64,000 nucleotides of DNA. Source: Methanoculleus oceani. Its GTDB lineage: Archaea; Halobacteriota; Methanomicrobia; Methanomicrobiales; Methanoculleaceae. The stretch spans positions 372,001 to 436,000 of the forward strand of contig NZ_QFDM01000002.1 of the NCBI RefSeq assembly GCF_023702065.1. Direction: 5' to 3'. Made by a program: the position numbers and the translations under genes. The notes under the pieces were generated by a model. It was not told the DNA's origin and did no database searches. It saw only the letters and a list, made by a program, of their open reading frames with translations. Below, piece after piece: positions 5,511-52,922 of this stretch (positions within the stretch are counted from its first letter, which is position 1; each line of letters begins with the position of its first letter).

Positions 5511-6023
5511 GTGATTCCACCCGTGACGCCCGCCACCGGCGATGCCTACATAACACTTCTGGGACGCTCAACATGGGCGCTCGTCAACGCATATCATGCA
5601 GTCCTGCGGGAAAAGGGGTTGCGCCCCGAACGGGTCTCTATCGTCACCGAGGAACCCTACGCGCACGACGCATCGATCGCAGCCAGGGCGATCCGGATAG
5701 TCTCGGGGGGATACGGGTTCGCTCCGGAAGTCCAGGTGGAGGTCCTGCCCGAAGCGGACTTCGTACGAGCCGGGCAGACGATCCGCTCGCTTGCCCGGGA
5801 CCTTATCCAACAGGGGTTCCGCGTGGCGATCGATATCACGTCGGGCAGGAAGGTCACGGTCGCCGGGGCGCTCATCGCGGTCTCGCTCGCGGGGCTTGAC
5901 CTCCGGCACATCTATTACCTCGCCATGACGAGCACCGACGACGTCGCAAAACCGTATATGATGATCCCGCACCAGATCCAGAGGATCCGGGATATCATGG
6001 AGGATGCGGAGGCAAGATCATGA
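5511..6023 (+). CDS. Stand-alone CARF-like (Rossmann) sensor protein
   Basis: 170 residues from a GTG. The fold signature is that of CARF domains, which bind cyclic oligoadenylates in type III CRISPR signalling. A first strand and nucleotide loop ITLLGRSTW lies at residues 14-22, a helix-strand series follows, and the strand-loop DITSGRK sits at 108-114, followed by a hydrophobic helix and HIYYL (133-137). The loop matches the Ser/Thr-x-Gly-x-Lys ligand loop of CARF proteins. No effector domain is fused. The gene overlaps the next one, a PIN-like nuclease, by 4 nt (ATGA), so the pair should be co-translated. A ring nuclease (a CARF protein that degrades cyclic oligoadenylate) is the main alternative to a regulatory sensor. 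No cas gene or CRISPR array lies in the window. Confidence 0.75.
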   Translation: MIPPVTPATGDAYITLLGRSTWALVNAYHAVLREKGLRPERVSIVTEEPYAHDASIAARAIRIVSGGYGFAPEVQVEVLPEADFVRAGQTIRSLARDLIQQGFRVAIDITSGRKVTVAGALIAVSLAGLDLRHIYYLAMTSTDDVAKPYMMIPHQIQRIRDIMEDAEARS

Positions 6024-9599: not shown

Positions 9600-10210
9600 G
9601 TTGAGTCGTTGTGATGCAGGGATGTCCAGTAGATAGTGCACCTTGCACCTAACGATGCTCACGCTCCTGCCTCCGACCAGTCGCGCTCCGAACCGTCGCA
9701 TCCTGCGGACAGTCGTTCCTTCGGAACATTGCTCACTCCCGTGCACGGCTTTCCAGTGGATATCGCACCTTCGGTGCTCCAGCTCCGTTCCTGCCGGAAC
9801 GTCGCGTATCGCCACGCGGGGAGGGGCTGACGGGGAGTGCGAGTGAAGCGAGCTTGAGCACCGATAGGTGCGAAGGGGGGACACGCCCCCCTCCCCTGTC
9901 TCCCCCTCATAGGGCATATCTGTAAACCCCACCCCGCCCGGCCTCCGGCCTCCTCCTCTGCACCTCCGGTGCTCAAACTCCTGCCGTTCGCTACGCTCCC
10001 GGCAGTCGTTCCCCGCCCCCTGGGGCGGGGGCAGTGCGTGGCGATAGGCGATGTCCCCACGGGACATCGCTGGGGAAGACCGAAGGTCTTGGACTGGCGA
10101 CTGGCCGAAGGGCAGGAGCAGGAAAAGACCAGAAGTCTTGGAGTGGCGGCGTTCTGGTAGAACAACTAGCCGTAGGACAAGATTTCAAGCCCCGGTGAGA
10201 GAGCCCGACC
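9600..10210. repeat. Structured dispersed intergenic repeat, copy A
   Basis: About 600 nt without a credible gene. It holds several copies of a short hairpin core, GCACC-N4-GGTGC or close variants (about 9646, 9766, 9856 reversed, 9960), and perfect G/C hairpins such as CCCCGCCCC-CTG-GGGGCGGGG near 10010-10030. The block 9810-10050 is closely related to 30530-30700: both carry GGAGGGGCTGACGGGGAG, the CACGCCCCC...CCCTGTCTCC block, the CCCGGCCT..CGGCCTCCTCC block and GGGGCGGGGGCAGTGCGTGG, in the same order and spacing. The function is unknown; it could be a non-autonomous element or a structured RNA. Confidence 0.7.
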
Positions 10211-14349: not shown

Positions 14350-17217
14350 ATGATCGACAAACCTGGAAGAAAAGCACTATTTACCGGGCCGATTGCACCG
14401 GGGACGACAGGACAGGCACAGAAACAGGGGGCGGTGGTACTGCCCGAGGCGATCGAGGCCGCACTCCATGCAGGAATCGGCGGCGACAACTCCGCGAAGA
14501 TCGACCTTGCCGGCATTCCGGATGAGTTCCGCCCCCTGGCCGGCTCGATCAACGCGCTGCTCGAGAAGAAGCAGGAGGAGAAGCAGACCCTCAGGCGCCG
14601 GCTGGAGGAGGCAAAAGCGCTTCTGAGGAGCTCCGATATGGTCATCGAGCAGAACCCGATGCCCATTCTGGTCGTCGACCTGGAGTTCAAAATAACCGTA
14701 GCCAACGCCGCCTATGCCGAGATGAGCGGGATCCCGATGGATCAGGTGCTCGGCAGGAGCCTGAAAGACTTCAAGATAACGTCGCAGAAGGGATCCGGTC
14801 TCCGGCAGGCGATCCAGGAGAAAAAGCGTGCGTATGCGGAAGTCGTCGTCGAACTGCCCTCGGGCACCCATACGCTCGAGCAGTACGGCATCCCGCTTCT
14901 TGACAGGGAAAATGCGGTCGAGAGCGTCCTCATCGTCTATAACGATCTCACCAGACAGCGGGAGGGAGAGGAAGAGATCCAGGCCCAGATGGAGAATATC
15001 GCCGAACTGCAGCGGCAGTCCGAGACGATCGTCCAGAAGAACCCGATGCCCATCCTGGTCGTCGATACCGCACTGAAGATTCTCACGGCCAACGAGGCAT
15101 ACCTCAAGTTGACCGGCATCGACCGGTCGCGTATCACCACGATGACCCTGCGGGACTTCAAAGTTCTCGACCAGAAGGGAGACGGGATCAAGAAGGTGCT
15201 CACCGAGAAGGTGCGGGTTGACGGCGAGGTGACGGTTGAGTTCCCCACCGGCACCTACATACTGGAACAGTACGGGATTCCGCTCTTAAACGAGAAGAAC
15301 GAACTGACAGGGATCCTGAACGTTTATAACGACGTCACCGAAAAACGCAAGGAAGAGGACGAGATCCTGCGGATGCAGCACCGCGTGGACACGATGATCC
15401 AGCAGAACCCGCTTGCGATCGCGACCCTCCGCCCGGACAAGAGCCGGATCGACATCAACGAAGAATATGCCCGGATGTGGCGGGGAACGCGGGAAGAGAC
15501 CATCGCGAAGAAACTCTACGACTACGATATCACTGTCATCGGCGGCGAGCACTTCTACGCCTGTTACGAGACGAAGAAACTCGCACGGACCGACGTCATG
15601 GTCAAGTGGCCCGACGGCGTGAAAAAGTACCTCACCCTGAACGCCATCCCGATCCTGGATGCGAAGGGCGAGATCGAGATGGCTTTCTACGTCTGGAACG
15701 ACTGGACAAACCTTCAGGAGGAGAAGGAGGAAGTCAAGAAGACCGAGCACCGGGTGGATGCGATGATCAAGCAGAACCCGCTTGCGATCGCGACCCTCCG
15801 TGCGGACAAGAGCCGGATCGATATCAACGACGAGTACGCCCGGATGTGGCGGGGAACGCGGGAAGAGACCATCGCAAAGAAACTCTACGACTACGATATC
15901 ACCATCCTCAATGGCGACCACTTCTACGCCTGCTACGAGACGAAGAAACTTGCACGGACCGACGTCATGGTCAAGTGGCCCGACGGCGTGAAGAAGTACC
16001 TCACCCTGAACGCCATCCCGATCCTGGATGCGAAGGGCGAGATCGAGATGGCCTTCTACGTCTGGAACGACTGGACCGAGCAGCGGGAGAGAGAGGACCA
16101 GATCCGGGACCTGATGGAGACTGCAAAGCAGGAGAGCGAGAGACTCGCCCAGAGCGCCGAAGAACTCGGAACCGCACTCGCCGCCATGGCGAAGGGCGAC
16201 CTGACGGCGTTCGTGGACGCAGGAGCCACCGATCCTCTCCAGAAGGTGAAGAGCGACTACAACGTCTCGTTGACCGCCATCCGCACGCTCCTCGCAGACG
16301 TGGCAAAAGCGGCCCACCAGGTAGATATGACGACCAAGGAGGTCAGCAAGAGCACCGACGAGATCATCCGGGCCACGGAGCAGGTCGCCGCCTCGACGCA
16401 GCAGTCGTCGGAGGATGCACGACGCCAGCTCGAGAAGATCGAGGAGATCGGGACGGATATCAACGACCTCTCGGCATCCATCGAGGAGATCGCCAGCACA
16501 TCGCAGGAGGTCATGGAGCAGGCCTCGAAGGCTTCGAAGGAGGGGAACGATGCGGCCTCGCTCGGTGAGGTTGCAGCGAAGAAGATGCAGCTCGTCGAGG
16601 AGATCTCCAAACAGACCGTGGACGAGATCAGCACCCTCAACAACCAGATGCGTGAGATCAACAACATCGTCAAGTTGATCGCCGATATCGCCAACCAGAC
16701 CAACCTCCTTGCACTGAACGCCGCAATCGAGGCCGCCCGCGCCGGGGAGCACGGCCGCGGGTTTGCCGTGGTCGCAGGCGAGATCAGAAACCTTGCCGGG
16801 GAGTCCAAGCGGGCGAGCCAGGATATCGAGGACCTGATCCGGACAATCCAGGCAAGCACCGAGAAGACCACAGGCTCGATGCAGGCGTCCCACCAGGAGA
16901 TCCAGGCGGGCATCGAGAGCGTCAACAAGGTCATCGTGGGCTTGAACCGGATCGTCCACGGTGTGGAAGTGGTCGCCCACGGCATCACCGAGATCACAAA
17001 AGCCACCGAAGACCAGGCAGGCTCCACAAACAACGTCATGCAGAAGATGGACGAGTCCACCCACATGACCAAGGAGAGCCTGGACCGGACCGAGGATATG
17101 GCGGCACTCGCGGAAGAAGTCAGCGCATCGACCGAGGAGGTCGGGAGCGCGTCCCACGAACTGGCGGATATGGCCGAACAGCTCGGGTCGGTAATGAAGC
17201 AGTTTAAGATCAACTGA
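14350..17217 (+). CDS. Soluble methyl-accepting chemotaxis protein with four PAS domains
   Basis: 955 residues with no membrane segment, so a cytoplasmic receptor. The order is a short N-terminal region with a coiled coil (about 70-95), PAS1 (about 95-205), PAS2 (about 220-335), PAS3 (about 341-463), PAS4 (about 464-586), a HAMP-like segment (about 595-655), and the methyl-accepting signalling coiled coil with its hairpin tip [20 protein letters not shown] near residue 793. PAS1 and PAS2 share a NPMPILVVD start; PAS3 and PAS4 share NPLAIATLR and are nearly identical, including at the DNA level. PAS domains suggest sensing of a soluble ligand, redox or energy state. It is followed by cheW and cheR in the same operon. 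Confidence 0.95.
15375..15706 (+). repeat. PAS-encoding direct repeat, first copy
   Basis: The 332-nt stretch encoding PAS3 recurs 369 nt (123 codons) downstream with only scattered differences, mostly at third positions. This indicates a recent in-frame duplication or ongoing gene conversion. Confidence 0.9.
15744..16075 (+). repeat. PAS-encoding direct repeat, second copy
   Basis: The PAS4-encoding copy of the repeat at 15375-15706. The most visible protein differences are conservative, for example VIGGEHF against ILNGDHF in the same position of the two domains. Confidence 0.9.
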
Positions 17218-20518: not shown

Positions 20519-21232
20519 TCACCTCCGGTTCCTCCGGAGCACGACGAGGAGCCCGGCAACTGCAACGGCAAGAGTTACGCCGATGAGCGAGAGGGGGGCC
20601 GCCGGCGTCGGGCTTGCATTAACCTGAGCCGCCTGTATCGGCGTGAACGTCGGCAGATCAGCCGTCGTCGCCTCGGCCGTCACCTCCTCCGTCCCGATTA
20701 CGACGGGAGGTCCGGTCTCGTTCGCCGTCTCGCTCGTTGTCCCGTTGATGGTCTCGTTCGCCGTTTCGTTGGCAGTTTCGTTGGTTGAATCGTTGATAGC
20801 CTCGTCAAGGGTCTCTATCGGGGTCTCCTCGTCCAGAGTCGTCTCCTCGTCCAGGGTCTCTACTGGAGTCTCCTCATCCAGGGTCGTCTCGTCGTCCAGA
20901 GTCTCTACAGGGGTCTCGTCGTCCAGAGTCTCTACAGGGGTCTCGTCGTCCAGAGTCTCTACAGGGGTCTCGTCGTCCAGAGTCTCTACAGGGGTCTCCT
21001 CATCCAGAGTCGTCTCCTCGTCCAGGGTCTCTATCGGGGTTTCCTCCTCAGGGGTCTCCGTCAGGGTCTCTTCAGGAGTCTCCTCCGGGGTCTCGTCGGG
21101 TGTCGGAGGGAGAGTCCAGGTCACAGGTTCAGCAAATGCTGTGCTCTGGGCCGCTACGGGGGACGCAGCGGCCGCTGCTGCCACAAGCAGCACGACCAGA
21201 AGGCCTCTCAGTTTCCATCGGTTACCTGCCAT
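20519..21232 (-). CDS. Repeat-rich cell-surface protein with C-terminal anchor
   Basis: 237 residues from the ATG at 21232; GGAG lies 6-8 nt upstream and a TATA box (AAATATAAAAATA) at about 21256-21268. A signal peptide (LLVVLLVAAAAAASPVAAQ) is followed by a Thr/Glu/Pro/Asp tandem array (ETPVETLDD units of 9 residues with 6-residue ETTLDE variants), then an Asn/Glu/Thr-rich stretch with many Asn-x-Thr sequons (NDSTNETANET). A proline-rich spacer leads to a membrane helix and a basic end, LRRNRR. The layout is that of a glycosylated, highly acidic stalk protein of the archaeal S-layer. The repeat count is likely variable. Confidence 0.75.
   Translation of the reverse strand: MAGNRWKLRGLLVVLLVAAAAAASPVAAQSTAFAEPVTWTLPPTPDETPEETPEETLTETPEEETPIETLDEETTLDEETPVETLDDETPVETLDDETPVETLDDETPVETLDDETTLDEETPVETLDEETTLDEETPIETLDEAINDSTNETANETANETINGTTSETANETGPPVVIGTEEVTAEATTADLPTFTPIQAAQVNASPTPAAPLSLIGVTLAVAVAGLLVVLRRNRR
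20808..21090 (-). repeat. Tandem 27-nt coding repeats in the surface protein
   Basis: Four consecutive identical or near-identical 27-nt units (about 20900-21000) encode TPVETLDDE. Degenerate 27- and 18-nt units flank them. All are in frame, so copy-number change would keep the gene open. Confidence 0.85.
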
Positions 21233-30419: not shown

Positions 30420-30860
30420 GAGCGGGAGAGCGCTTCCTGAAACCCCCCACCGATTTTATTTGTATTCGCTGAAGAGCAAGGGCTGTTCGTTTCCAGCAGT
30501 CCCGGTACAGTGGACCGTGGGGATATCGCCACTGGGGGAGGGGCTGACGGGGAGGGGGGCACGCCCCCTCCCCTGTCTCCAACTCAAACTATTGTTGCTC
30601 AAGCTCGCTATGCTCACACCCCCATCACCCCCACCCCACCCGGCCTTCGGCCTCCTCCCCCGCCCCCCAGGGGCGGGGGCAGTGCGTGGCGATATCCCCA
30701 CGAAATCCGTGGTTCGTTACGCGACAGGCCAGAAGGCAGGAGCGTGAGCACCGTCAGGTGCGAAGAACCGGAGCCTGAGAAACCATCAGACTCCAGAAAC
30801 AACCACCCGGGGGACAGAATCCCATAGCAAGACCCGGGTCCTTGCATCCTCCCTCCGCCA
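30420..30860. repeat. Structured dispersed intergenic repeat, copy B
   Basis: The 559 nt between thiC and the cyclo-ligase gene have no supportable gene. 30530-30700 repeats 9810-10050: GGAGGGGCTGACGGGGAG, the CCCCCTCCCCTGTCTCC block, the CACCCGGCCTTCGGCCTCC hairpin, CCGCCCC..GGGGCGGGGG and GCAGTGCGTGGCGATA. At 30738-30765 the GAGCACCGTCAGGTGC core appears in reverse orientation relative to 51.4 kb. Internal differences keep the hairpins paired. Confidence 0.7.
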
Positions 30861-49093: not shown

Positions 49094-50431
49094 TTATATC
49101 ACCGTCGTCTTCCAGGCCCCGCGCCGGTACATCGAGAAGAGTATGCCCGTCTGCAGGATGGCCCCGGAGACCACCGCCAGCCAGACCCCGCCGATCCCGA
49201 TCCCGAGCAGGTCGGGGAGGATGCACGCGAGCGGGATCTGGAAGAGAGCCATGGAAACAAGCGTGGCATACATGGGCCGCCTCGTGTCGCCGGCCCCGTT
49301 GAGCGCGAACCCGAGGATGATCGCGACGGCGATAAAGACGTAGAATGGCGCGACTGTCTGCATGTACGAGACGCCGACCTCCGTGCTCGCGCCGCTCGGG
49401 TCGAAGACCTCGATGATCGCGGGTGCGGCGAAGAAAAAGATCGCCCCCACGAGCGCCATGAACCCCCCGTTCATGAGCGCGGAGAGCCGGACACCCTCTT
49501 CCGCCCGATCGGGCTTTTTGGCGCCGAGGTTCTGGCCGACGATCACGGCGGTGGCGGTCGCGATCCCGAACCCCGGCATGAGCGCGACCAGCTCGAGCCT
49601 GCCCACGATGCCGTAGGCGGAGAGGGCTGCCGTGCCGAAGACCGCCACGATCGCCATCATAGCAAGGAACGTCACGCTCCGGAGCCCGGACTGGACGGAG
49701 TTCGGGACGGCGACCCGGATCAGCCTCCAGGCAAGCGTTAACTCGAACTTCGTCCGGAGCGAGAAGGGAATCTGCGTCCGTCCCGAGAGGAGCAGGGCAA
49801 ACGCTATGGCGAACGCCACGCTCCGTGATATGATGGTGGCGTATGCCGCCCCGGCAACGCCGCAGGCGGGGACTGCCCCGTAGCCGAAGATCAGGAGCGG
49901 GTCGAGGGCGATGTTGAGGAAATTGGCAAGGACCACGAGGAGCATGGGCGTCGTGGCGTCGCCGCAGCTCTGGAACGAGGAGTTGATCACCCAGAGCTCG
50001 ACCAGCATCACGCTCCCGGCGAAGAGGACCGTCAGGTAGGATGCCCCGAGGGCCGCAACGTTCGGTTCGGCGCCGAGGAGAAGGAGCATGTCCTCGGCAA
50101 AGATAATGCCCGCGACACTGAGGACCATCGAGAACACGAGCCCGAGGACCAGGGTATGCGAGACCCCCTTCGCCACCATATCGTAGTTCTTTGCCCCGTA
50201 ATGGCGCGAGACGAAGGCAGTGTTCGCGGTGACGATGCCGATGATGACGGTCATGAGCACCATGACGATCGAGGTGCTCATGGCGACACCGGCGATAGCC
50301 TCCGCTCCCAGCCGGCCGACGAAGAAGAGGTCGACCAGCTCGAGGCCGCTCTGCAGCACGTTCCCGGCCACGATCGGCGCCGCTACCGTTATGAGACCCC
50401 GGAAGAGGTCGCCTTCGGTCAGTTCGGTCAT
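49094..50431 (-). CDS. MATE-family multidrug/metabolite exporter
   Basis: 445 residues with twelve hydrophobic helices in two similar halves. The N-terminal motif RGLITVAAPIVAGNVLQSGLELVDLFFVGRLG and the repeat VPNSVQSGLRSVTFLAM in the second half are MATE hallmarks. It exports drugs or metabolites using a Na+ or H+ gradient. Its start overlaps the upstream gene by 4 nt (ATGA). Confidence 0.92.
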   Translation of the reverse strand: MTELTEGDLFRGLITVAAPIVAGNVLQSGLELVDLFFVGRLGAEAIAGVAMSTSIVMVLMTVIIGIVTANTAFVSRHYGAKNYDMVAKGVSHTLVLGLVFSMVLSVAGIIFAEDMLLLLGAEPNVAALGASYLTVLFAGSVMLVELWVINSSFQSCGDATTPMLLVVLANFLNIALDPLLIFGYGAVPACGVAGAAYATIISRSVAFAIAFALLLSGRTQIPFSLRTKFELTLAWRLIRVAVPNSVQSGLRSVTFLAMMAIVAVFGTAALSAYGIVGRLELVALMPGFGIATATAVIVGQNLGAKKPDRAEEGVRLSALMNGGFMALVGAIFFFAAPAIIEVFDPSGASTEVGVSYMQTVAPFYVFIAVAIILGFALNGAGDTRRPMYATLVSMALFQIPLACILPDLLGIGIGGVWLAVVSGAILQTGILFSMYRRGAWKTTVI

Positions 50432-51261
50432 GCAGCCAGTTTTTCTTTATACGACTCCAGGATCTGGATGATAAAGCGCTGATGCTCTTCCAGCGCCTGC
50501 TCGTCGTCGGGGGAGGTCTCGATCCCGACGGCGTAGAGCAGGACCAGCGCGTTGTCGAGGTCGAGCGCTGCCGGGTCATCGATCTGGTCCGGGCGGAGAC
50601 GGATGGCGAGATCGTCGTAGTCCGCCTCCGTGAATGTATGCTCGGGGTTAACCGTCACCCGGGACTCGGCGAAGCCGCCGGCACGCTCACGGAGGATCAG
50701 GAGGGCGCGCTCAAGCGCGCCGGGGTGCGGGGTGATCGCGTCGAGCCTGGCAAGTGCAGCCGTCATCTTCTCGGCCGCGCTCCCATAGAGCTCGAATTTA
50801 TACGTCAGCAGGGACTGCGCGATCAGGTGCCCGGTCTCCCCGTCGATCGCGGCGAAGACCGGCTCGATCCGGTCGATGTATTCGTTGAGTATCTGCTTCA
50901 TTGTTTTCTCCTCTGCTTTCGGCGCATTAAACAATTTTTCCACCCGAACCGCGAGGAAGACAATCGTCGCCGAGAAGATCGTCTGCACAAGCACCCCCGG
51001 GTCGAGATCGTTGGGCACGACAAAGATGAGAAACGCGAAGAGCGGCGTGAATAGCGAGACGAGATCCCGCCGCGGTTTGAGGTACGCCTGGTAGCAGAGG
51101 ATGCACGAGGCGGCCACGCACCCTGCGATGCCTGCCCAGATGGCGTATGGGAAACCGACGGAGGCGAGCAGCAGCTCGATCCCGATTCCCCCGAACGAGA
51201 CTGCAGGAACTGCTATCCAGAGGCGTGATTTCGACCCGGAAGTGGTGGTGTTTGTCTTCAT
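50428..51261 (-). CDS. Membrane protein with large cytoplasmic helical domain
   Basis: 277 residues. Four hydrophobic segments near the N-terminus (about 14-115) are followed by a helical soluble domain (about 125-277) rich in Leu/Ala/Glu with EEKTMKQILNEYIDRIEPVFAAIDG. I do not recognise the family. It overlaps the MATE gene by 4 nt, so the two proteins are probably made together. Confidence 0.7.
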   Translation of the reverse strand: MKTNTTTSGSKSRLWIAVPAVSFGGIGIELLLASVGFPYAIWAGIAGCVAASCILCYQAYLKPRRDLVSLFTPLFAFLIFVVPNDLDPGVLVQTIFSATIVFLAVRVEKLFNAPKAEEKTMKQILNEYIDRIEPVFAAIDGETGHLIAQSLLTYKFELYGSAAEKMTAALARLDAITPHPGALERALLILRERAGGFAESRVTVNPEHTFTEADYDDLAIRLRPDQIDDPAALDLDNALVLLYAVGIETSPDDEQALEEHQRFIIQILESYKEKLAA

Positions 51262-51297
51262 GAACCGTTCTCAGGAAGTGTTTGTGCGCTGGGCTAA

Positions 51298-51545
51298 ACA
51301 GGGTTTCCCTTCGCACTCTTCGAGTGCTCGTGCTCCGGCTCTGATGACCCGTCGCACTTCGCACCTACGGTGCTCATGCTCCTTCCTCTGTGCGGAAGTC
51401 GCACTTCGCACCTAACGGTGCTCATGCTCCTTCCTCTGTGCGGAAGTCGCACTTCGCACTCTTCGAGTGCGCGTGCTCCGGCTCTGATGACCCGTCGCAC
51501 TTCGCACCTAACGGTGCTCAAACTCCGGTTCCGGCAAACCATCGC
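51298..51545. repeat. Tandem hairpin repeats with compensatory stem changes
   Basis: Two 47-48-nt units (about 51357-51404 and 51405-51452) each carry GCACC-TAA/TA-CGGTGC and the same CTCATGCTCCTTCCTCTGTGCGG-type flank. They are flanked by two copies of a related unit in which the stem is GCACT-CTTCG-AGTGC (about 51312 and 51457). Stem pairs change together between units, so the hairpin itself is conserved. A similar core is seen at 9.6-10.0 and 30.7 kb. The region overlaps no credible gene. Confidence 0.75.
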
Positions 51546-51573
51546 TTTCGATGCGAACCGCGAGTTCTCCCGG

Positions 51574-52872
51574 TCATGAGGACGGGGGCGGGAGGTCGGG
51601 CACGTCGACCTCCACATCCCGGCCGGCGAGAGCAGCCGCGCGGGATCGGAGTCTCTCGCATTCTCCGGCATATGCGGCCTGCGACATCTCACGCTGGTTC
51701 TCGGCCCGGGCCCGTGCGGCAGCCTTTGCCTCGCGCTCCCGCTTCAGTTCCGCGAGCGCGGTCGTGAGACGCTGCTCCTCGATCACGCCCGGGAGAGCGG
51801 CGCGGGTCTCCTGCAGTGCCGCCCGCTGCTCCCGGACCTCTCTTCGCCGGTGCAGGACCCGTCTCATCCCGGCGGGCAGGGTATCGGGGTCCGAGAAGAG
51901 GCGGACCTCGTCCTGGTTCTTGAGGGGAAGGTCGCCCTGCCGGATCATGGCGAGCGTTGCCGGCATCACCGCTTCGGTCAGGGCGACCGGATCCTCCCCG
52001 TCGTCCGGGAGGCTGCCCGTGTACGCGTCGAGAACCCGGCCGATTGCCGCCGCCACGCCATCTCCTGCCTTTTCGGCCACCTTCCCGGCCTTCCGGAAGA
52101 CATGGATGGCAGGGGTTCGGAGAGATGCGAGCTCCCGCCCGGTCTCCTCGTCCATGGCGTCGAGTTCCCGGATCCTCTCCTCGATCTCCTGCTGTCGGGC
52201 GTGGTCCGGGCGCAGTTTGAGGGCGGCAAGGTCTTCTTCGGTCTTTCGGATCGCTCTTTCCGCCTCCGTAATCGTCGCGCCAAGGTTCCGCACCTGGCCG
52301 TCGGCTGCAGCATACTCCTCGCGGATCCGGGCGAGGGACGCATGCGACTCCCGGACGTCTTTTACCTGCTGCCGACCCGCCCGGGCCCGGGCGAGGGCCT
52401 CGGTCATCGTGTTGACCTCCCGCCCCAGATCTTTGACGGCTGCGCGCACCTCCTTCATCTCGTCCGGGTAGACGGAGGAGAGGTACTTCCCCTGCCCTTT
52501 CAGCGCCTTGAGCGAGCCTTTCAGGATCTCGGCGGCGGTTGCGTAGAAGGCCTCCGGGTCTCCGGAAGGCTCGCGGGAGAGGATCTGGGCCATGGACTTC
52601 GTGAACCCCGGAAGTGCCTTCTTTGATATATCCCGGAGCCGGGGGTGGACCTCCTCATCACCCTGGGCCGTCTCCATGCGGGCGGCCGCCTCCCTGAGGT
52701 GATCGAGGGTGCCGCTGATCGCCTCCCGGGACGGCCCCGTCGCATCGGAGAGGTCTGTCCCGATCTCCTCCTCGCGGGCATCGAGCCACACGGGAAGGCC
52801 GTCAAGCGAGAGTTTCAGGCTCTCTTCCACAGGTTCGGTTCGCCGGAAGAGGTCTCGCAGTTGCTTAAACAT
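51574..52872 (-). CDS. Coiled-coil protein of unknown function
   Basis: 432 residues from the ATG at 52872 (MFKQLRDLFRRTE), with GGATGGACC upstream. Almost entirely charged helix: predicted coiled coils at about 150-260 and 330-420 (EIEERIRELDAMDEETGREL; ALAELKREREAKAAARARAE), and a Pro/Ser tail. No SMC or Rad50 head is present. It may be a scaffold or DNA-organising protein. It lies 50 nt after the nadM-like gene on the same strand and may share its operon. Confidence 0.7.
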   Translation of the reverse strand: MFKQLRDLFRRTEPVEESLKLSLDGLPVWLDAREEEIGTDLSDATGPSREAISGTLDHLREAAARMETAQGDEEVHPRLRDISKKALPGFTKSMAQILSREPSGDPEAFYATAAEILKGSLKALKGQGKYLSSVYPDEMKEVRAAVKDLGREVNTMTEALARARAGRQQVKDVRESHASLARIREEYAAADGQVRNLGATITEAERAIRKTEEDLAALKLRPDHARQQEIEERIRELDAMDEETGRELASLRTPAIHVFRKAGKVAEKAGDGVAAAIGRVLDAYTGSLPDDGEDPVALTEAVMPATLAMIRQGDLPLKNQDEVRLFSDPDTLPAGMRRVLHRRREVREQRAALQETRAALPGVIEEQRLTTALAELKREREAKAAARARAENQREMSQAAYAGECERLRSRAAALAGRDVEVDVPDLPPPSS

Positions 52873-52922
52873 GGTCCATCCAGGTATACCCGATGTCGGC
52901 CGCACCTATCATGGTTCCGTCC

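Follow-up and report, generated by a model that had tools for sequence, protein, structure and literature searches.

What is the array of tandem hairpins that fills a gap between two genes of Methanoculleus oceani, and for what is its shape kept? The window analysed here is a stretch of 64,000 nucleotides of this genome, in which the initial annotation had described four hairpin units at 51298-51545 and suggested a small RNA, a protein-binding array or a mobile mini-element. An array does lie there, with limits that a covariance model moves to 51310-51547 on the minus strand, as five contiguous matches. The count of four units gives way to five, set head to tail without gaps, each 47-48 nt long and each with two types of hairpin (one type had been noticed), so that the array holds ten hairpins. 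The GCACC..GGTGC stems that had been described are present in units 1, 3 and 4, and the second stem type occurs as GCACTC..GAGTGC in units 2 and 5 (Table 1). The gap is gene-free, as annotated: the gene caller predicts genes only at its flanks, bordering it at 51261 and 51574. Open frames cross the array on both strands, yet codon statistics call no gene, and we rejected a coding array. The motif TCGCACTTCGCAC, with at most one mismatch, occurs four times at the array against 0.14 occurrences expected in the window. Fold z-scores of the array are -6.7 for the minus strand as DNA, -4.6 for the plus strand and -8.8 for the minus strand as RNA. A further motif, TAAACAGGGTTTCC, adjoins the array and has the look of a BRE/TATA promoter for the 50428-51261 gene; its TAAACAG part is present, as read by eye, in 29 of 29 orthologous gaps.

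Table 1. Features of the window, numbered from its first letter. Units of the array are given in minus-strand 5'-3' order.
Feature	Position	Strand	Basis
Whole array: five back-to-back two-hairpin units	51310..51547	-	covariance model and fold z-scores
Unit 1: hairpin B GGTT..AACC, hairpin A GCACC..GGTGC	51501..51547	-	E 3.7e-12
Unit 2: hairpin B CGGGTC..GAGCCG (one G/G mismatch), hairpin A GCACTC..GAGTGC	51453..51500	-	E 6.2e-9
Unit 3: hairpin B CTTCC..GGAAG, hairpin A GCACC..GGTGC	51405..51452	-	E 1.1e-11
Unit 4: like unit 3, hairpin A loop one base shorter	51358..51404	-	E 6.5e-12
Unit 5: like unit 2	51310..51357	-	E 7.8e-11
Flanking gene of 277 aa without a Pfam match at E 0.01	50428..51261	-	
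Flanking gene, 443 aa from first possible start (gene caller: start 52830); Pfam match sub-threshold only	51574..52905	-	
Motif TAAACAGGGTTTCC (plus-strand spelling), adjoining the array	51295..51308	-	orthologous gaps read by eye
Further unit	9642..9686	-	covariance model, E 4.7e-8
Further unit	9762..9807	-	covariance model, E 1.4e-13
Further unit, minimal hairpin B, within G-quadruplex repeat	9837..9874	+	E 3e-8
Further unit	9957..10011	-	E 1.5e-9
Further weak unit	10095..10126	+	E 2.5e-4
Further single unit	30719..30764	+	E 4.3e-11
rPQS (CTGAC type) interrupted by unit ("filled")	9818..9896	+	
rPQS (CTGAC type) uninterrupted ("empty")	30534..30573	+	

The initial annotation had read the paired stem changes as a sign that structure is selected or copied. 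Counted from the left, the first and fourth units of the array are near-copies of each other, as are the second and third (direct repeats, 98% over 59 nt and 100% over 45 nt). Because the units are near-copies in pairs, covariation inside this single array amounts to one difference and is weak evidence, and the finding therefore rests on the family at other loci. The array belongs to a non-coding DNA repeat family dispersed in Methanoculleus, of which it forms a local cluster. Counting its own place, BLAST matched it at 44 places of the M. oceani genome (E up to 0.01). With the covariance model, at least 146 units were found there (E up to 1e-4); they form 69 clusters, a cluster being units less than 400 bp apart.

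Read on the minus strand, which we call the GA strand, a unit begins with hairpin B (outer helix of three pairs, GA, inner stem, loop, inner stem, GA, outer helix) and continues with hairpin A (one base, GA, stem A, loop, stem A, GA, and one base that pairs with the first). The inner stem of hairpin B is 2-7 bp long and joins the outer helix through a GA/GA internal loop, and its terminal loop is often GNA or GNNA; in hairpin A a single outer pair and GA/GA are followed by a stem of 5-8 bp with a loop of GNA/GNNA type. A kink-turn, considered on paper, was set aside, as the GA/GA loop of hairpin B lacks the three-base bulge.

Covariation holds up once more copies are aligned, as a check set beforehand had asked, and the family-wide alignment much strengthens the structural reading. 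In an alignment of 62 units drawn from several genomes, changes on both sides are seen at 12 of the 15 base pairs, with 138 double-change cells against 45.2 in shuffles and a covariation score of 0.446 against 0.182. Pairing reaches 94.6% of cells against 80.1% with shuffled partners, a percentage inflated by the way the units were collected, with a pattern in which GA and part of the linker letters are set and some pairing is demanded. No shuffle out of 500 attained any of the observed values, and pairing fell to 29-42% when partners were slid as a control. Since the collecting pattern fixes GA, GA conservation is not readable from this alignment. RNAalifold, unprompted, returned the same fold with 14 of the 15 pairs.

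Hairpin B cores picked by their linkers alone behave in the same way. Those of 15 nt (82 distinct) are paired at 79.7% against 52.8% and those of 16 nt (45 distinct) at 77.0% against 58.5%, with 0 of 500 shuffles reaching the observed covariation in either class; among distinct B cores chosen blind to pairing, stems of at least 5 bp occur in 30 of 59, where 0.87 are expected. The outer pairs of hairpin B (z 7.7 and 7.3) and of hairpin A (z 4.1), which at first sight have the look of conserved linkers, covary as well. Hairpins A of 13-14 nt are nearly invariant, the 14-nt type being without excess covariation, and the signal comes from the longer A types. Linker pairing around hairpin A in place of B (z 1.3, 0.9 and -1.6) and a pair n3-m6 around hairpin B (z -1.9) are not claimed. 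Repeat places are related by descent, so that all of these counts are not independent.

Double changes could also arise with no selection at all, if template switching at replication rewrote one arm of a stem from the other. Such a mutational process would leave perfect stems of many kinds, and these are numerous: the 203 distinct B cores include 129 stem strings, chance matches counted in. Imperfect stem types are nevertheless frequent, a C/C mismatch at stem pair 4 being common enough to occur in 18 of 82 B cores, and template switching predicts neither the strand-dependent tolerance of G.T nor the loop and flank rules described below. We consider it improbable.

The tolerated mismatches indicate which strand folds. 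On the GA strand, the 14 pairs listed by RNAalifold contain 36 G.U and 10 A.C cells. Fixed-length cores read on the CT strand give A.C to G.T counts of 28:22 (B15), 32:9 (B16) and 5:2 (B17) for hairpin B and of 6:2 (A13), 4:1 (A14), 1:0 (A17) and 3:0 (A19) for hairpin A; counts are opposite or even for A15 (3:6), A16 (1:3) and B14 (11:11). Because G.T pairs are tolerated mainly on the minus strand, we regard it as the folding strand; wobble cells are not independent, and we therefore attach no probability to the comparison.

Flanks and loops were assessed at 114 places at which only the stem GCACC/GGTGC was fixed, in loci that neither pattern nor model had fetched. GA stands on both sides of the hairpin at 68 of these places, on one side at 26 and on neither at 20; four control palindromes have GA on both sides at 0 of 13 places. 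Within 464 kb taken regardless of units, 7 of 13 GCACC/GGTGC places carry GA on both sides, and a wider locus set gives 369 of 499, a value inflated by loci fetched with patterns that fix flanks or loops. Where GA is present on at least one side in the 114-place set, triloops are GNA in 40 of 41 cases and tetraloops GNNA in 50 of 53. Hairpin B loops are more mixed, with G..A in 52 of 82 cores of 15 nt and 25 of 45 of 16 nt. The most frequent 7-nt inner cores of hairpin B are GCGTAGC, ACGGAGT, GCGAAGC and GCGCAGC, at 28 of 60 places (some of the 60 are misparsed longer stems). Extraordinarily stable DNA mini-hairpins are described in passages of PMC4686876: their loops are GNA or GNNA, they have two or more G-C pairs, and GCGAAGC is one of them. 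Mainly because the GA flanks, the loops and the GCGAAGC cores match these mini-hairpins, single-stranded DNA is favoured over RNA, and the repeat probably acts as a single-stranded DNA fold.

The same features bear on a structured RNA, in which the GA strand would be transcribed and its hairpins would form an mRNA tail, a small RNA or a scaffold for an RNA-binding protein. Strong covariation and a tolerance of G.U mainly on one strand are what such an RNA would display, the minus strand has a fold z-score of -8.8 as RNA, and the GA strand is favoured by RNA parameters too, although thermodynamic parameters favour it about as much as RNA as they do as DNA and do not discriminate. Against an RNA, 47 of the 50 GNNA tetraloops have C or T in third place, contrary to the GNRA rule, and inner stems of 2 bp would be weak as RNA. 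The whole window has no match at gathering score in Rfam 15, and a lax scan gave best E values of 1.1 and 3.5, with a top score of 17.6 bits where 40 are required.

Position relative to genes provides further evidence on this point. A script located 37 two-hairpin array places in the M. oceani loci at hand. Predicted genes contain none of them; same-direction gaps contain 18, convergent gaps 11 and divergent gaps 7, and 1 is at an edge. An RNA tied to its neighbours should show an orientation bias, and the GA strand is sense in 9 of the same-direction gaps and antisense in 9, which speaks against it. The small RNA of the initial annotation is accordingly less favoured, and we judge a structured RNA of any of these kinds unlikely. 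The split between convergent and divergent gaps is 11:7 (p 0.48), and it is suggestive only when set against how much array-free gap the window has of each kind, 1064 bp convergent and 4485 bp divergent. Scanning more loosely, for hairpin A alone, returned 58 places, of which, as scored by the scan, 3 are inside and 5 overlap predicted genes. At one locus (L005, ~1480-1570) a single unit seems to interrupt coding-like sequence; the gene is uncalled by the gene caller and its disruption is only suspected. In 21 samples, GC skew stays near zero (-0.021 to 0.046) and shows no trend, and so gives no reading on replication-strand bias.

We identified the family well beyond M. oceani. The covariance model, with stricter filters and among the matches listed, has a match at E up to 0.001 in 32 of 120 genomes sampled across the order and none in the other 88. 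The positive genomes are all 22 sampled congeners, one member of the same family (G114) and 9 others with at least 1 to 9 matches. With plain BLAST at 1e-4, matches appear in 18 of the 25 genus members searched and in 1 of 16 other genomes. Contigs with an exact match to the unit pattern number at least 80, of which, among the matches listed, 54 are labelled Methanoculleus and the rest Euryarchaeota, Methanomicrobiales and, once, Lokiarchaeota. For this last contig (L426, Candidatus Lokiarchaeota) mis-binning is likely, and contamination may account for it and for the single match in genome G123. Phage and plasmid collections searched held no match to the repeat; the sole contig of a viral collection with an exact unit-pattern match (IMGVR_UViG_3300038829_000267, 5826-5849) is possibly a provirus or host fragment.

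Copy number varies from genome to genome. As lower bounds from the covariance model, 19 of the 22 congeners have at least 48 units and the remaining three have at least 4 (G002), 5 (G023) and 24 (G059). G019 has at least 161, and one of its arrays (C1:222437-223221) has at least 17 nearly identical hairpin A repeats at 47-nt spacing. The differences among the 22 congeners weigh on an architectural role, in which units would be duplex or cruciform sites for a nucleoid, condensation or segregation protein, with the linkers as recognition code. GA positions kept while stems vary, extragenic placement and the many clusters throughout the genome would suit such sites. The few units of G002, G023 and G059 would not, and strand-specific tolerance of wobble pairs is unexpected for a duplex site, which leaves us regarding this role as quite unlikely.

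Outside the family Methanoculleaceae, one genome (G057, 71% complete) provides a distant view of the fold. It has 12 covariance-model matches at E up to 0.01, four of which were aligned. In one copy (L270) the outer C-G pair has turned to G-C and stem A has changed to GCAAC/GTTGC; a second (L276) has the same turned outer pair, and in a third (L263) stem A is GCGAC/GTCGC. All three keep the GA flanks and G..A loops, and the fourth (L281) has several broken pairs. Swapped pairs with kept GA flanks are what selection on the fold predicts.

The array is unevenly present among relatives. The orthologous gap in 29 genomes, M. oceani included, is occupied in 10, contains a remnant in 2 and is empty in 17. 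Occupied gaps vary in the number and type of units; G131, the relative whose flank is most similar, has five units, some of them of other types. A tree of the neighbouring gene requires 5 changes of the occupied state, of which at least 3 are forced by well-supported branches, and the pattern could alternatively reflect one old gain and several losses. G004 and G088, close neighbours on the tree, differ in occupancy; the G088 gap includes a stretch of N, and on the promoter side its flank resembles the one in G131, and recombination or misassembly may explain the contrast.

Filled and empty sites are also seen within M. oceani, in another repeat. A G-quadruplex repeat (rPQS, CTGAC type) is present in 18 copies in the loci at hand, 10 intact and 8 interrupted by a unit or array, always at the same point, after GGGGA (8 of 8); most of these loci were fetched for holding units, so that 8 of 18 is not a genome-wide rate. 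The window has two copies, one of each kind (Table 1). At 9800-10050 and 30520-30690 the rPQS stands within longer composite elements that run from near TATCGCCAC to near GTGGCGATA, with inverted ends, and these may represent a bigger mobile element in which hairpin units reside. Among the three roles suggested by the initial annotation, a mobile mini-element fits these filled and empty sites best.

Arrays also seem to grow in place. We found runs of 7-9 units with mostly equal scores, one of them with identical matched text, and count these in support of growth by tandem duplication. Other tandem repeats of the window are a duplication at 15377-16076 (369-bp period, 93% matches) and dense repeats of the GTCTCCTCGTCCAGAGTC type at 20714-21098, with periods of 12-126 nt, perhaps from a repeat-rich protein.

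The known mover of REP elements, a RAYT-type Y1 transposase (Y1_Tnp, Pfam accession PF01797), was not found in the M. oceani genome and was rejected as the mover there. The domain occurs in 7 of 35 congeners, over the cut-off in 6. Five carriers (G002, G013, G020, G022 and G023) have no BLAST match to the array; a sixth, G009, has both the domain and arrays (at least 58 units by the covariance model). Because arrays are present where Y1_Tnp was not found, the known REP mover is not needed for them.

We lean, with somewhat more confidence than doubt, towards a REP/BIME-like two-hairpin DNA repeat of Methanoculleus that is kept for its single-strand fold. The folded form would be single-stranded DNA in which sheared G.A pairs close the base and recur in the loop, and an enzyme or process acting on single-stranded DNA would copy or insert units that fold well, so that the fold is kept. 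Arrays would then enlarge by tandem duplication, and any benefit to the host would be secondary. Points that count against this reading are the C/C mismatch in a common type of hairpin B, the missing covariation in 14-nt hairpins A, the 20 of 114 hairpins with GA on neither side and the negative search for Y1_Tnp in the M. oceani genome. A bolder proposal, which we offer tentatively and with more doubt than belief, is a new class of archaeal selfish DNA set by single-strand fold and not by sequence. Its sheared-G.A mini-hairpin units (GA/GA base, GNA/GNNA loop, free stems) would be spread by an enzyme that reads hairpins, or through nuclease-resistant single strands that survive and enter again, and would extend beyond Methanoculleus with near-fixed pairs swapped, as in G057.

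If the fold is what gets copied, this would be a natural system in which selection reads the shape of one DNA strand and leaves stem letters nearly free. More than 100 units per genome would offer test substrates with which to look for an archaeal enzyme, or a process, that recognises hairpins of single-stranded DNA, and M. oceani, with no detectable REP-type transposase, is a setting for such a search. The repeat family, which changes fast, would be a marker for typing strains. Entries that probably stand listed only as satellites would also find an explanation as structured elements: judged by genus and length, Fam_48_45_4 and Fam_102_51_3 of Methanoculleus marisnigri, given in part of PMC6749651 with repeat lengths of 45 and 51 nt, are probably arrays of this hairpin family, and 45 nt is the spacing of one array in G019.

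A comparison with other systems places the family among several partial likenesses. Recognition of a single-strand fold whose stem sequence varies is known from integron attC sites, which are marked by conserved R boxes, an integrase and cassettes; the Methanoculleus units are packed without gene cassettes. The mini-hairpins of PMC4686876 follow the same loop rule and include the literal GCGAAGC core, but are presented in the passages concerned as a chemical tool for aptamers, whereas here they are the building block of a natural repeat family. The rPQS of Methanomicrobiaceae are described in sections of PMC8044849 as dispersed intergenic G-quadruplex repeats; they share this habit and genome group with the hairpin units but are a separate repeat that the units interrupt, and the words palindromes, inverted repeats, transposition and mobility are absent from that paper's main text. 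Titles, abstract openings and some passages of the literature searched contain no description of the Methanoculleus hairpin family, and none of it as an extragenic palindrome.

The closest likeness is to bacterial REP and BIME elements, which, in the portions of the literature consulted, are also short extragenic palindromes of high copy number, with clustered hairpins and an uneven distribution among related species (PMC2817692; PMC3116915; PMC3733652). The Methanoculleus repeat is likewise short, extragenic and of many copies, and two hairpin types alternate in its clusters as in BIMEs, which does not imply the function or origin of the enterobacterial elements. Its stems vary widely in sequence while flank and loop bases are kept. 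REPs are defined by an unpaired GTAG or CGTC tag at one end (as given in part of PMC3733652), whereas the flank that is kept here is GA, which stands on either side of hairpin A at 68 of the 114 places; CGTC-like letters next to hairpin B, on the opposite strand, derive in part from the stem. The repeat is thus REP/BIME-like in organisation and not a REP member by tag or transposase, and this roughly 47-letter repeat looks like a new archaeal counterpart of the bacterial extragenic palindromes.
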